Part shown: one piece after another, positions 39,691-45,115 of the stretch | Numbering within the stretch: the first letter of the stretch is position 1 | How the letters are laid out: the number at the start of each line of letters is the position of its first letter | Source of the DNA: Microlunatus sagamiharensis | Lineage (GTDB): Bacteria; Actinomycetota; Actinomycetes; Propionibacteriales; Propionibacteriaceae | Reading direction: 5' to 3' | Length of the DNA: 64,000 nt | Assembly: GCF_900105785.1 (NCBI RefSeq) | Contig: NZ_LT629799.1 | Coordinates: 3,224,001 to 3,288,000 of the forward strand | The notes under the pieces: generated by a model | Databases searched by the model: none | What the model was told of the DNA's origin: nothing | Seen by the model: the letters and a program-made list of their open reading frames with translations, nothing else | Program-made: the position numbers and the translations under genes

Positions 39691-40647
39691 CTAGGTGAGG
39701 GCGGAGCCGGCGTGCCGTCCCCGCTCGCTCCCGGTCGAGCGCCGGACGGCCGCGCCGCTGACGGCGCCGAGCGCGGCCGGAACGCCGACCAGGACGAGGA
39801 AGAAGAGGAGCGACGACGGGAGGTCGGCGGCGTCCACCCGGAACGACTCCCGCAGCGCCCTCCGGCCGTCCCCGTCGACCAGGCCGTCGATCGTCGGCTG
39901 GAAGCTCACGAGCAGGCTCACGAGCACCGTCACGACGGACCAGACGAGCACCAGCGGCCGAGCCTTGAGCACGAGGCCGTCGAGGAGCGCGAGCACGAAG
40001 GCGAGCGCCGCGATCACGGCGAAGGCGAGGAGGCCGGCACCGAGTGCGTCGTCCTGGGTCCGGGCGGTCAACGAGGCCGCCACCTCGATCACCAGGGGCC
40101 ACAGGAGCAGCCGGAGCCCCACGGCCCAGGGACGGCGGAGCAGCGAACGCATCGGCGAGGGGTCCATGACCTCAGCGTCGCCAGCCGGCTCGGCCGGCGC
40201 GTCCACCCCAGGGGGGACCTCGCCCGCCTGAGGGTGGGTCCTCCGGAGGCCCCGCCGCTCGCGCCAGCGCTCGACGACGGCGTCCAGGTCGACCTTCGCC
40301 GTGATCACGGGCGGGCCGTCGACCCGGCGCCGGTGGGAGTCGAGGATCCGCTCGTTGAGCTCGTCGACAACGTCGCGGACGCCGGCCTCGTCGCGGCAGC
40401 CGGCGACGGTCTCGTCGATCTCCCTCGCCTCGCGCCGCAGCTGGAGCGACGTCGGCAGGGGCATCCGGATCTGCTCGCGCTCGAGCAGCCCCTTGACCCA
40501 CCAGTTGGGGTCGCGGTCGTCGAGGTTCAGCGGCTTGCCCTGGCCGGGCAGGTCGTCGAACTCGCCCCGCTCCATCGCCTCGCGCACCTTGCGCTCGGCG
40601 ACCGTCTCGGGGCGCCGAGCGGGGTCCGGTGCCCACCATCTCGCCAC
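39691..40647 (-). CDS. DUF1992 (DnaJ-C28 conserved domain) protein with C-terminal membrane domain
   Basis: A 318-residue protein. Residues about 12-120 are the DUF1992/DNAJC28 conserved domain: ERKVREAMERGEFDDLPGQGKPL and LNLDDRDPNWWVKGLLER are diagnostic. After a linker of about 40 residues the C-terminal half has four hydrophobic segments (LRLLLWPLVIEVAASL, AGLLAFAVIAALAFVLALLDG, LVLVWSVVTVLVSLLVSF, LLFFLVLVGVPAALGAVSG), which the usual short members lack. The role of the domain is unknown. GTG 40647 has a TAGCCT hexamer 6 nt upstream. It is divergent by 36 bp from the GroEL-apical-like gene. Confidence 0.85.
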   Translation of the reverse strand: MARWWAPDPARRPETVAERKVREAMERGEFDDLPGQGKPLNLDDRDPNWWVKGLLEREQIRMPLPTSLQLRREAREIDETVAGCRDEAGVRDVVDELNERILDSHRRRVDGPPVITAKVDLDAVVERWRERRGLRRTHPQAGEVPPGVDAPAEPAGDAEVMDPSPMRSLLRRPWAVGLRLLLWPLVIEVAASLTARTQDDALGAGLLAFAVIAALAFVLALLDGLVLKARPLVLVWSVVTVLVSLLVSFQPTIDGLVDGDGRRALRESFRVDAADLPSSLLFFLVLVGVPAALGAVSGAAVRRSTGSERGRHAGSALT

Positions 40648-40683: not shown

Positions 40684-41376
40684 GTGCAGGCGTGGGTCGT
40701 GGTGATGGTCGTGGTCCTCGTGGTCGCGCTCGCGCTCACCGTCTACGGGGCGCTGCACGACCGCGCCCTGAACCGCCGCCGCGCTGCCGAGATGCTCGGC
40801 CCGCCCGCGCGCGACATCCCGAACCTGCCGTCCGACGCGCCCTCCCCCGCGTACGTGACCGAGGCCCAGGCCCGGAGGCGTCCGGAGACAGCGCGCGACA
40901 CGCTCGGCGAGCGTGACCGCGACGCCGAAGGCACGGTCGAGGTCGCCGCCGGCCACGCCTCGGCCGACTTCGCCACCGACACCCGGACGGGGACCGCCGT
41001 CCTCGACGCACCGCTCGTCCTGGTCTGCGAGGGCGGCGTGGGGACGATCCGTGAGCTGCTGCCCGCGCTGGAGCACGCGATCAGGGCGTCGCGGCCGCTG
41101 GTCGTCGTCGCCCCGTCGATCGCGCCCGACGTGCTCGGCACGCTCGAGGTCAACGCGATCCAGGGGCTCGTCCCTGGGGTCGCGGTCCTCGCCGACGACG
41201 CCGTCCGCGCCGAGATCGCCTCGCTCAGCAGAGCCGTGCCGGTCGACGCCACCGACCGCCGCTCCGGCTGGACCGACCCGGCCGCGTTCGGCCGCCTGGC
41301 CCGCTGGACCAGCACCCGTACGTCGAGCCGGCTGACCCCGGCCGCCTCCCTGTCGAGCGCCGAGGTCGCCGAGTGA
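40684..41376 (+). CDS. Membrane-anchored GroEL apical-domain-like protein
   Basis: A 230-residue protein. Residues 3-22 (AWVVVMVVVLVVALALTVYG) are one membrane helix. Residues about 84-215 align by eye with the GroEL apical domain: VEVAAGHASADFATDTRTG matches the start of that domain, LDAPLVLVCEGGVGTIRELL and LPALEHAIRASRPLVVVAP match its core, and LGTLEVNAIQGL is the GroEL ALATLVVNKLRG region. Equatorial and intermediate domains (ATP site) are absent, so this is not a chaperonin subunit but resembles a minichaperone on a tether. Orientation is probably N-out or N-in ambiguous. The stop overlaps the EamA gene start (GTGA). A CACGCT hexamer lies 6 nt before the GTG. Confidence 0.8.
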   Translation: MQAWVVVMVVVLVVALALTVYGALHDRALNRRRAAEMLGPPARDIPNLPSDAPSPAYVTEAQARRRPETARDTLGERDRDAEGTVEVAAGHASADFATDTRTGTAVLDAPLVLVCEGGVGTIRELLPALEHAIRASRPLVVVAPSIAPDVLGTLEVNAIQGLVPGVAVLADDAVRAEIASLSRAVPVDATDRRSGWTDPAAFGRLARWTSTRTSSRLTPAASLSSAEVAE

Positions 41377-42281
41377 GCGAGCAGGAGGGCGGCAGCCGCT
41401 TCGCCTACGTCAGCGCGCTCACGCCGCTGATCTTCGGCACGACCTACCTGCTCACCACGAACTTCCTGCCGCCCGACCGGCCGCTGCTCGCCGCGCTGAT
41501 GCGTTCGCTGCCGACCGGGCTGGTGCTGGTGATCGGCAGCAGGCTGCCGAACCGGCTCTGGCTGGGCCGCTTCCTGCTGATGTCGGTGCTGTGGGCCTCG
41601 GCGGTCTTCCCGCTCCTCTTCTTCGCCGCCTACCACCTGCCCGGCGGCGTCGCGGCGGTGATCAACTCGCTCGGCCCGATCTGCGTCGTGGTCCTGGCCG
41701 TGCCGATCCTGGGCAACCGGATCAGGCCGTTGCAGGTCGTCGCCGGGATCATCGGGGTGGTCGGCGTCGCGCTGCTGGTGCTGCGGGCCAACGCCAAGCT
41801 CGACCTGCTCGGCATCCTGGCCATGGTCGCCGTGGTGGTCATGATGGCGTTCGGCACCGTGCTGATGAAGCGTTGGGGCAGCCCGCCCGGCATGGGCCCG
41901 ATCCGGGTGACCGGCTGGACCTTCCTCTTCGCCGGGCTGACGCTGCTGCCCTTCACCCTCGTCTTCGAGGGCCTGCCCCGCTCGGTCACCCCGACGCAGG
42001 TCGGCGGCCTGGTCTACCTCGTGGTGATCAGCGGGATCTTCGCGTACGCGCTGTGGTTCTGGGCGATCGGGCAGCTGAGCGCGGCGTCGGTGACCTTCCT
42101 CGGCCTGCTCAACCCGGTCATGGCCACGTTCCTCGGCTGGTGGGTGCTCGACCAGCGGCTCAACCTGCTGCAGGTGCTGGGCGCGGCCCTCGTGCTGGTC
42201 TCGGTCGTGCTGGGCCAGCAACGGCGCGTACGCCCGCCGGTGACGGTCGAGCAGCCGGTCGAGGCCGCGGCCCGCTCCTAG
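41373..42281 (+). CDS. EamA family (DMT) transporter
   Basis: A 302-residue polytopic protein with ten hydrophobic segments in two EamA repeats: LIFGTTYLLTTNFLPPDRPLL and ALMRSLPTGLVLVIG in the first, LVYLVVISGIFAYALWFWAIG and VTFLGLLNPVMATFLGWWVL in the second. DMT transporters export amino acids, metabolites or drugs. GTG 41373 overlaps the stop of the GroEL-apical-like gene by four bases. The specific substrate cannot be predicted; this copy resembles the RhaT/EamA general exporter type. Confidence 0.93.
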   Translation: MSEQEGGSRFAYVSALTPLIFGTTYLLTTNFLPPDRPLLAALMRSLPTGLVLVIGSRLPNRLWLGRFLLMSVLWASAVFPLLFFAAYHLPGGVAAVINSLGPICVVVLAVPILGNRIRPLQVVAGIIGVVGVALLVLRANAKLDLLGILAMVAVVVMMAFGTVLMKRWGSPPGMGPIRVTGWTFLFAGLTLLPFTLVFEGLPRSVTPTQVGGLVYLVVISGIFAYALWFWAIGQLSAASVTFLGLLNPVMATFLGWWVLDQRLNLLQVLGAALVLVSVVLGQQRRVRPPVTVEQPVEAAARS

Positions 42282-42336
42282 TACCCCACCGCACCACCCG
42301 GCTGGCTCGGGACCCCACGCCGCCGCGGCGGCTCCG

Positions 42337-42342
42337 TACGCT
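42337..42342 (+). promoter_or_regulatory. -10 hexamer TACGCT of a leaderless promoter
   Basis: TACGCT lies 7 nt before the GTG of the first DUF202 gene, with no Shine-Dalgarno sequence between. Confidence 0.5.
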
Positions 42343-42349
42343 GCCGTGC

Positions 42350-42730
42350 GTGAGCGACGAGCAGGCCGACCGGCGCTGGCCGCGCAGCGTCTACGGCGTC
42401 GGGAGCGAGCCGGACCCGCGCTTCACCTTCGCCAACGAGCGCACCTTCCTGGCCTGGATCCGGACGGGGCTCGGCTTCCTGGCCGCCGGCGTGGCCGTCG
42501 CGGCGGTCGCCCGGATCGACCAGCGGCTGAGCCTGGAGGTGCGCCTCGCCTCCCTGCTGCTGGTGGCCTGCGGCCTGGGCTGCGCAGTCGGGGCCTGGCT
42601 GCGCTGGGTGGGGAGCGAGCGCGCGATGCGCGAGGGGCGGGCGCTGCCGTCGTCCCCGCTGCTGCTCGTGCTGGTGGGGGTCCTGGTCGTGGTCGCGCTC
42701 ATCGCCGCCGTCGTGCTCTTCGTCGGGTGA
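42350..42730 (+). CDS. DUF202 (YidH-like) membrane protein, first copy
   Basis: A 126-residue protein with three membrane helices. The DUF202 mark is FTFANERTFLAWIRTGLGFLAAGVAV near residue 25, then LASLLLVACGLGCAVGAWLRW and LLLVLVGVLVVVALIAAVVLF. Function of the family is unknown; members occur in pairs in many actinobacteria, as here. GTG 42350 is supported by the TACGCT hexamer 7 nt upstream. Confidence 0.92.
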   Translation: MSDEQADRRWPRSVYGVGSEPDPRFTFANERTFLAWIRTGLGFLAAGVAVAAVARIDQRLSLEVRLASLLLVACGLGCAVGAWLRWVGSERAMREGRALPSSPLLLVLVGVLVVVALIAAVVLFVG

Positions 42731-42740
42731 GGCGTCCGCG

Positions 42741-43073
42741 GTGACGCACGAGGCCCCGCCGCCCTGGGACTCGGGGCTGCAGAACGAGCGCACCGGGCTG
42801 GCCTGGCAGCGCACGATGCTCTCCGGCCTGGCCTGCGGGCTGCTCGTCGCCCGGCTCCTCGTCGACGTGTCGCTGGCCCTGGCCGTCCTCACCGGCGCGC
42901 TCTCCCTCGGCGCGACCGCGGCGTTCGGCCTGGCCGCGCTGCGACGGTTCCGGCTCAACGCCGAGGCGCTCGTCGGGGGCGGCACGCTCGGCGACGGCCG
43001 TCCCGTCGCGCTCGCGGTCCTGCTGCTCGGGCTGACCGCCCTCGGCGGGCTGGGGTTCGTGCTGCTCGCCTGA
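42741..43073 (+). CDS. DUF202 membrane protein, second copy
   Basis: A 110-residue three-helix protein: GLQNERTGLAWQRTMLSGLACGLLVA is the shortened DUF202 mark, followed by two more helices (LALAVLTGALSLGATAAFGLAA and ALAVLLLGLTALGGLGFVLLA). It lies 10 bp after the first copy and is surely co-transcribed; the two may form a heteromer. Start is the GTG at 42741. It converges on the metallopeptidase gene with a 25-bp gap. Confidence 0.9.
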   Translation: MTHEAPPPWDSGLQNERTGLAWQRTMLSGLACGLLVARLLVDVSLALAVLTGALSLGATAAFGLAALRRFRLNAEALVGGGTLGDGRPVALAVLLLGLTALGGLGFVLLA

Positions 43074-43098: not shown

Positions 43099-43476
43099 TC
43101 AGGCGTACCCGAGCTCGTGCAGCCGGTCGTCGTCGATGCCGAAGTGGTGGGCGATCTCGTGGACGACGGTGATGTGGACCTCCTCGACGACGTCGTCGAA
43201 GGTCTCGCAGATCGCCAGGATCGGCTCGCGGAAGACGTAGATCCGGTCGGGCAGCACCGCGGAGTAGAACTCACCGCGCTCGGTCAGCGGGATGCCCTCG
43301 TAGAGCCCGAGGAGGTCGTCGGGTGCGTCCTCCGGCGGCCGGTCCTCGACGAGCACCACGCAGTTGTCCATCAGGTCCGCAAGCTCGGACGGCACGCGGT
43401 CGAGCGCCGCGGCGACCAGGTCGTCGAACTGGGCGGCGCTGAGGGGGCCGAGCGGTTCGGGCGGGGTCTCGACCAT
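43099..43476 (-). CDS. Zincin-like metallopeptidase family protein
   Basis: A 125-residue protein of the small zinicin-like family. The motif VHITVVHEIAHHFGIDDDRLHELGYA at the C-terminus contains HExxHH with a downstream Asp, consistent with a zinc site. Residues 10-60 have LVAAALDRVPSELADLMDNCVVLVEDRP and the family phrase GLYEGIPLTERG. Substrates are unknown. ATG 43476 is preferred over the adjacent GTG because a TAGGCT hexamer (43483-43488) lies exactly 6 nt upstream. Confidence 0.9.
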   Translation of the reverse strand: MVETPPEPLGPLSAAQFDDLVAAALDRVPSELADLMDNCVVLVEDRPPEDAPDDLLGLYEGIPLTERGEFYSAVLPDRIYVFREPILAICETFDDVVEEVHITVVHEIAHHFGIDDDRLHELGYA

Positions 43477-43575
43477 CACTCGAGCCTACGGGCGGCGGCC
43501 CGGTCGGTGGCCGAGCCGGCGCGACGGGCAGTCGTGGGGCCCGTTCCACGCGGGGAACAGCTCTGGAGGCAAGGA

Positions 43576-43786: not shown

Positions 43787-45115
43787 ATGCGCTCGACCCT
43801 GATCCGCGCCGTCCTGGTCGCGGTCCTGACCATCGCCACGACGATCGGCCTGCTCGGATCGGGCGCGGCCACGGCCAGCACCCCGGTCACGGCCACCACC
43901 GAGCTCAACGTACGGGCCAAGCCCAGCACCAGCGCCAAGATCCTCGGCAGCCTGCACCGCGGCCAGACCGTGAAGGCCAGCGCCGAGAGCGGCGGCTGGA
44001 CCACGATCACGTTCAAGGGCGCGAAGGCCTACGTCTCGAGCCGCTACCTGACCGGCGGCGACGACCTGCCCGACAGCGACGACGTCGACAAGGGCGCGGC
44101 CAAGGTCACCACGACCCAGGTCAACCTCCGCGAGGGCCCCAGCCTGACCGACGACGTCATCGTCGTGCTCGACCAGGGCACCCGCGTGACCACGACGGGC
44201 AAGACGGCGAAGGGCTGGACCGAGGTCACGGCCGGCTCGCGCAAGGGCTGGGTGAGCAGCCAGTACCTGACGGCGGCCACCAGCAACGGCGGGCTGCCCA
44301 AGCCGATCGGCACCCGCAAGACCACCGCCGACCTGAACGTCCGCGCCACCAGCGCCGAGGACGGCAAGCTCCTCGGGCTGGCCCGCAAGGGCACGACGGT
44401 CTCGATCACCGGGGCCACCGACAACGCCCGGGCGCAGATCATCTTCGAGGACACGGTCGGCTGGGTGCTCGCCAAGTACCTCACCAACGGCGACACCGAC
44501 CAGCCGAGCGCCCCGCCGCTCCCGGCCGTGACGGGCACCCGCTACGCGACGGCCGACCTCACCATCCGCACCACGAGCGGGGCGGACTTCGAGGACCTCG
44601 GGGACATCCCCAAGGGCACCAAGATCTCGATCACGGGGAAGACCGAGAACGCCCGGGCGCAGATCATCTGGGACGGCGCCGTCCGCTGGGTGACGGCGCA
44701 GTACCTGTCGAAGACCAAGCCGACGAGCGGCTCGACGGCCGGCAGCACCAAGGGCCTCAAGCCCAACGGGGTCAAGGTGCTGGAGGCGGTGCGCAAGAAC
44801 TGGCCGCAGATCAAGACCATCGGCACCGTGCGTCCCGACGCGCTGCCCGACCACCCGTCGGGCCGGGCGCTGGACCTGATGATCCCCGACTACAAGTCGA
44901 AGGCGGGCAAGCAGCTCGGCTACGACCTGTCGCGCTGGCTCCGGGCGCACCACTCCGAGCTCGGCATCAACTACATCATCTGGGACCAGCACATCTGGAA
45001 CGTGCAGCGCGACAGCCAGGGCTGGCGCTCCATGGCCGGCCGCGGCAGCGACAGCGCCAACCACAAGAACCACGTGCACGTCACCGTGCTGGCGAAGGGC
45101 TACGCGCCCATCTGA
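43787..45115 (+). CDS. Secreted protein with four bacterial SH3 repeats and an M15-like C-terminal domain
   Basis: A 442-residue exported protein. A signal peptide (RAVLVAVLTIATTIGLLGSGAATAS) is followed by four SH3-like repeats of about 70 residues (TELNVRAKPSTSAKILGSL; QVNLREGPSLTDDVI; DLNVRATSAEDGKLLG; DLTIRTTSGADFEDLG). The C-terminal domain (about 325-440) has HPSGRALDLMIPD and NHKNHVHVTVL, a His/Asp plus HxH zinc pattern of D,D-carboxypeptidase-like M15/VanY folds, but closer to the uncharacterised class seen in actinobacterial wall proteins. It likely binds and trims peptidoglycan. GGAGG lies 9 nt before ATG. A hairpin terminator follows. Confidence 0.85.
   Translation: MRSTLIRAVLVAVLTIATTIGLLGSGAATASTPVTATTELNVRAKPSTSAKILGSLHRGQTVKASAESGGWTTITFKGAKAYVSSRYLTGGDDLPDSDDVDKGAAKVTTTQVNLREGPSLTDDVIVVLDQGTRVTTTGKTAKGWTEVTAGSRKGWVSSQYLTAATSNGGLPKPIGTRKTTADLNVRATSAEDGKLLGLARKGTTVSITGATDNARAQIIFEDTVGWVLAKYLTNGDTDQPSAPPLPAVTGTRYATADLTIRTTSGADFEDLGDIPKGTKISITGKTENARAQIIWDGAVRWVTAQYLSKTKPTSGSTAGSTKGLKPNGVKVLEAVRKNWPQIKTIGTVRPDALPDHPSGRALDLMIPDYKSKAGKQLGYDLSRWLRAHHSELGINYIIWDQHIWNVQRDSQGWRSMAGRGSDSANHKNHVHVTVLAKGYAPI

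Follow-up and report, generated by a model that had tools for sequence, protein, structure and literature searches.

We identified a gene for a membrane-anchored GroEL apical domain in a stretch of 64,000 nucleotides from Microlunatus sagamiharensis (contig NZ_LT629799.1, positions 3,224,001 to 3,288,000), here called the window. In the encoded protein, a single N-terminal helix and a conserved linker precede a domain (residues 84-220) that corresponds to about residues 192-335 of GroEL. This bears out an earlier note, made from the letters of the window alone, that described a tethered apical domain without the ATPase parts. Having no ATPase domain, the protein is not a chaperonin; it places a GroEL domain in a novel architecture and is, in structural terms, a minichaperone. 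The family to which it belongs is under purifying selection. We give an even chance to the view that this natural minichaperone is an ATP-free peptide adaptor, tethered to the membrane, whose range of ligands has narrowed.

The affiliation with GroEL was detected by sequence and by structure searches. Searched as a single sequence, residues 85-171 of the window protein match eight NCBIfam GroEL models (2.3e-14 to 1.3e-4), all eight matches remaining far below the whole-protein cut-offs for GroEL, and GroEL chains in the PDB are matched at about 1e-11. A profile built from 28 members of the family (A1) matches GroEL at an E value of 1e-23 and widens the matched region to about GroEL 177-333. 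Pfam yields no match for the window protein and, across 41 members, a single weak match to Cpn60_TCP1 (E 0.005). The equatorial ATP-binding domain is not in the same chain, as the protein has only 230 amino acids and sequence matches are confined to about GroEL 176-335. Residues are given below in E. coli GroEL numbering, which equals the window residue plus 108 and is valid for 188-278; beyond this the family is about seven residues shorter.

Confident structure predictions were obtained for two members, including the window protein. The predicted model adopts the apical fold, as the earlier note had anticipated, and all 50 rows in Foldseek's own listing are group I chaperonins. The minichaperone structures 1dk7 and 1jon were matched over chain range 191-335, the stand-alone domain of minichaperones being about GroEL 191-345. 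In a viral structure library, a model of the member at locus L107 gave eight matches with E < 0.001, all to proteins of 511-609 amino acids, six of them named chaperonins. Matches were also found in 84 phage and 1006 plasmid records, none covering 80% of the query; nine of the 10 phage matches listed and eight of the 10 plasmid matches listed are annotated chaperonins.

The 4.4 Mb source genome, a single contig, also encodes two full GroELs (G000:C1:104926-106425 and 196829-198334) and one GroES (196446-196721), which adjoins the second GroEL. In a tree of 51 apical domains (30 actinobacterial GroELs and 21 of the 41 family members), whose branches are long and whose root serves for drawing only, the GroELs cluster together (100/100) to the exclusion of the family, so that the tree does not link the family to either GroEL copy.

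Distribution, membrane anchor and upstream region

A first search of 96 genomes detected a stand-alone match in 42 of the 57 sampled genomes of one taxonomic family (f1), most likely the Propionibacteriaceae; the match in G001 is partial only. Re-examination of the remaining 15 genomes added seven with the gene, giving 49 of 57, and three further genomes also carry it. The expectation of an apical-domain match in many genomes was thus borne out. Stand-alone members were not found in eight of the 57 (G020, G025, G031, G032, G040, G044, G051 and G053), of which G044 has a weak N-terminal match (6.5e-5). One stop lies inside the matched stretch in G029, G037 and G049, among the seven added, and in G017, G054 and G056 from the first search; that of G017 is the gene's own stop close to the match end. 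Six named contigs with relatives are assigned to Microlunatus, Friedmanniella and Propionibacteriaceae.

A profile of the N-terminal part (72 positions, not covering the GroEL-like domain) matched in at least 117 of 198 genomes of the same family, a lower bound, as the profile misses G054, which has the gene. Among 396 genomes of the phylum, 12 were matched by this profile, one being the source genome and the other 11 weak. Nine of these 11 loci were checked and showed no apical part: in six the match does not extend past profile position 78, and the other three gave no match. In a profile search of 394 genomes of the class, 389 were matched. Apart from the source genome and G018, of the same genus, the matches listed start at or beyond profile position 73 and lie in GroEL-like frames of at least 360 amino acids, behind which a diverged stand-alone member could sit.

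The window protein and 40 relatives share a common architecture. This 41-row alignment leaves out the partial match of G001, although G001 counts among the genomes that carry the gene, and includes a row for G007, which is absent from the 40 loci used for gene neighbourhoods. The dN/dS ratios of four pairs were 0.38, 0.43, 0.21 and 0.28, all below 0.45, and the family is under purifying selection.

In all 41 rows the charge flanking the helix is 0 or -1 on the N-terminal side and +1 to +4 on the C-terminal side, values that depend on the start codons chosen by eye for the relatives. Applying the positive-inside rule to these charges, we infer a cytoplasmic location for the apical domain. Conservation of the linker is similar to that of the domain, with a mean entropy of 1.88 over residues 39-66 against 1.96 over residues 84-220, and D26 (window numbering) is invariant (41/41 rows).

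A YANNNT element (often CAGGCT) lies at about -12 in 30 of the 41 members, compared with 1.4 in shuffles and at most four at other places; we settled on this pattern after inspecting the sequences, and only two of the 41 have the strict form TANNNT. Its conservation supports the GTG start and suggests a leaderless transcript that would begin at the start codon.

The substrate groove and possible functions

The two helices that line the groove, which we take to be those named H and I in GroEL, retain most of its core. Combining excerpts of two reviews, the substrate residues of GroEL are Y199, S201, Y203, F204, L234, L237, L259, V263 and V264 (PMC3268035, PMC7289027). A large hydrophobic residue is found at 199 in 34 of 41 members, at 204 in 40, at 234 in 41, at 237 in 40 and at 259 in 35, and 264 is hydrophobic throughout (V in 31, A in 8). 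N265 is invariant and T261 is kept in 36 of 41. R231 is present in 37 members; the position varies among the 30 GroELs in the comparison (Q, A, S, K, N). Of the eight classical substrate positions (199, 203, 204, 234, 237, 259, 263 and 264), six are hydrophobic in most members. The other two, 203 and 263, carry a charge in the majority, and this speaks against a promiscuous surface unchanged from that of GroEL. The earlier note had proposed surveying the hydrophobic residues of helices H and I for conservation; hydrophobicity is kept in most members at 234, 237, 259 and 264 but not at 263. Overall, the sequences suggest a groove that was retained and an outer rim that turned polar.

We propose that a GroEL apical domain, freed from ring and ATPase, may be held on the cytoplasmic side of the plasma membrane through its single helix and conserved linker. 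The groove between helices H and I would grip a short hydrophobic or extended client segment at the membrane, and release would occur by simple equilibrium, without ATP. The client set would be narrower than that of GroEL, perhaps a single partner, since residues inside the groove (234, 237, 261, 264 and 265) were retained and 203 and 263, exposed hydrophobic positions in GroEL, were replaced by charged or small residues. The proposal of an ATP-free peptide adaptor draws on an isolated apical domain of near-equal length that, in the excerpted account, is monomeric, keeps the substrate-binding surface and aids refolding without ATP (PMC9138447). The proteins of the DUF202, zincin and SH3 neighbourhood (Table 1) are candidate clients by position only. 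It is also possible, if rather doubtful, that the Propionibacteriaceae have made a membrane receptor from the GroEL groove, one that would work at the cytoplasmic face without ATP, pass membrane clients to GroEL or capture GroES, and owe a narrowed range of ligands to the changes at 203 and 263.

Several observations weigh against the adaptor. A lone apical domain lacks the ring's avidity and binds weakly. Apart from one GCACTC, the regions preceding the 41 genes showed no exact arm of CIRCE or HAIR, so nothing points to heat-shock control. Ten groove positions, picked by us from residues in an excerpt of PMC2741606, exceed randomly drawn domain sites in conservation (p 0.04) but show no significant excess over other sites on the same two helices (p 0.10), and groove conservation may for this reason be largely for the fold. 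S201 is retained in just 22 of 41 members, and GroEL Y199 is replaced by His at window residue 91. Position 203 is charged in 24 of 41 members and 263 in 25 (E in 22), both being substrate-binding residues of GroEL in the excerpted reviews (PMC3268035, PMC7289027).

The same residues bear on the alternatives. The protein might be a general membrane holdase that shields hydrophobic stretches of many newly synthesised proteins bound for the membrane or for export; the soluble minichaperone has this effect on several clients in vitro. The six hydrophobic binding positions and the predicted cytoplasmic tether would suit this role. However, the mostly charged 203 and 263 speak against it, and a general service would be odd in a protein not detected as a stand-alone member in eight of 57 sampled genomes and with no convincing member beyond the family by the N-terminal profile in 396 phylum genomes, so that we regard the holdase as unlikely. 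We think equally little of reuse of the fold without chaperone-like peptide binding, for example as a sensor or as a scaffold for DUF202 membrane proteins. Fast sequence change (long branches), the altered 203 and 263, the conserved linker motif beyond the GroEL-like part, the DUF202 pair that follows the gene at 22 of 40 loci and one in-frame run into DUF202 in a metagenome genome are in its favour; the groove core is nevertheless retained, and the DUF202 continuation was seen on a single contig, from an incomplete genome, and may be a sequence error.

More improbable again is a membrane dock or antagonist of the chaperonin system, in which the groove would bind the GroES mobile loop and hold GroES or GroES-capped GroEL. 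GroES contacts of GroEL given in the excerpted review are L234, L237 and N265 (PMC7289027), and these are among the best-kept positions, being hydrophobic, hydrophobic and N, each in 41 of 41; the genome has one GroES for two GroELs. However, the three residues are also invariant in the 30 GroELs compared and may be kept for the fold, and Y203 and V263, listed in the same excerpt as binding both substrate and co-chaperone (PMC7289027), are altered here.

We also considered a decaying GroEL fragment or a miscalled reading frame, given that the gene is related to a common one but truncated, and that Pfam recognises it in only one of 41 members, weakly. This explanation was rejected as hardly credible in view of 41 members with a common architecture, low dN/dS in all four pairs, the promoter-like element and two confident models.

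Neighbouring genes

Neighbours were counted by tblastn with the window's own neighbours as queries, in 40 loci and up to 6.5 kb downstream; the counts (Table 1) are lower bounds, as some contigs end early, the shortest downstream stretch being 1.4 kb. The earlier note had coupled the apical gene to an EamA exporter gene, and this partnership did not hold up: an EamA relative lies downstream in nine of the 18 loci of the window's genus and in none of the 22 other loci, and the four-base overlap occurs in three of 40. The most regular neighbour is the SH3-repeat protein, whose C-terminal part of about 120 amino acids lies outside the Pfam matches. Clustering of reading frames agrees with these counts (SH3 cluster 37/40, zincin cluster 32/40), and orientation deviates at two zincin loci and one SH3 locus.

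The two DUF202 genes occur as a tandem pair. In one metagenome genome (G021), the apical frame reads into a DUF202 domain without a stop (L089:5150-6271, + strand; the same locus as L024); this could reflect a genuine fusion or an error. Upstream, the DUF1992/DNAJC28-domain protein has a long C-terminal part that is apparently membrane-embedded, and its gene lies almost 3 kb away in two of 17 loci.

Table 1. Coordinates (window positions) of the apical-domain gene, its parts and its neighbours
Feature	Position	Strand	Remarks
Gene for membrane-anchored GroEL-apical-domain protein	40684..41376	+	230 aa, GTG start
N-terminal membrane helix, residues 3-22 (in model: helix 3-38)	40690..40749	+	predicted structure and flank charges
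Proline-rich linker, residues 39-66 (PPxRxIP...PxY...ARR)	40798..40881	+	conserved; alignment of family members
GroEL apical domain, residues 84-220 (about GroEL 192-335)	40933..41343	+	sequence and structure matches
GroEL helix H equivalent, residues 122-135 (R231, L234, L237, E238 equivalents)	41047..41088	+	model and alignment
GroEL helix I equivalent, residues 148-160 (L259, T261, V263 changed to E, V264, N265 equivalents)	41125..41163	+	model and alignment
CACGCT (YANNNT element), 12 to 7 bases ahead of start codon	40672..40677	+	read as leaderless -10 box
EamA-family transporter gene	41373..42281	+	4-base GTGA overlap with stop of apical gene; 9/40 loci
DUF202 small membrane protein a	42320..42730	+	22/40 loci; start codon not fixed
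DUF202 small membrane protein b	42741..43073	+	22/40 loci
Zincin_1 metallopeptidase-like protein	43099..43479	-	32/40 loci
Protein with bacterial SH3 repeats, probably exported	43787..45115	+	36/40 loci
DUF1992/DNAJC28-domain protein	39691..40647	-	divergent; upstream in 17/40 loci

Comparison with known chaperonin systems

The family resembles the group I chaperonin GroEL/Cpn60 in apical sequence, in predicted fold (about GroEL 192-335) and in the core residues of the groove. It differs in that the equatorial ATPase domain, almost all of the intermediate domain and the last apical helices are missing, in the added membrane helix and linker, and in the changed positions 203 and 263. The contacts that hold the GroEL ring together are mainly in the equatorial domain, and from its sequence the anchored protein is not expected to form rings. 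A chaperonin apical-type domain outside a ring and at a membrane is also found in the 'CCT' domain of the PIKfyve/Fab1 lipid kinase, which is eukaryotic, of group II type and part of a large kinase.

Among the matches listed in the open-licence literature, no natural stand-alone anchored apical protein is described, in agreement with the earlier note's view of an undescribed family. Whether the tip of GroEL alone is useful in the cell has been a question since minichaperones were engineered. Those minichaperones (GroEL 191-345, 1jon; 1dk7; Thermus, 1srv; GrAD, 190-333) are, in the excerpted account, soluble laboratory constructs (PMC9138447), whereas the protein studied here is natural and membrane-anchored and has conserved changes of its own. 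A natural, membrane-anchored minichaperone family under purifying selection makes the question of the lone GroEL tip directly testable and, if the proposed adaptor function is true, would provide a bacterial case of a chaperonin domain turned membrane adaptor.
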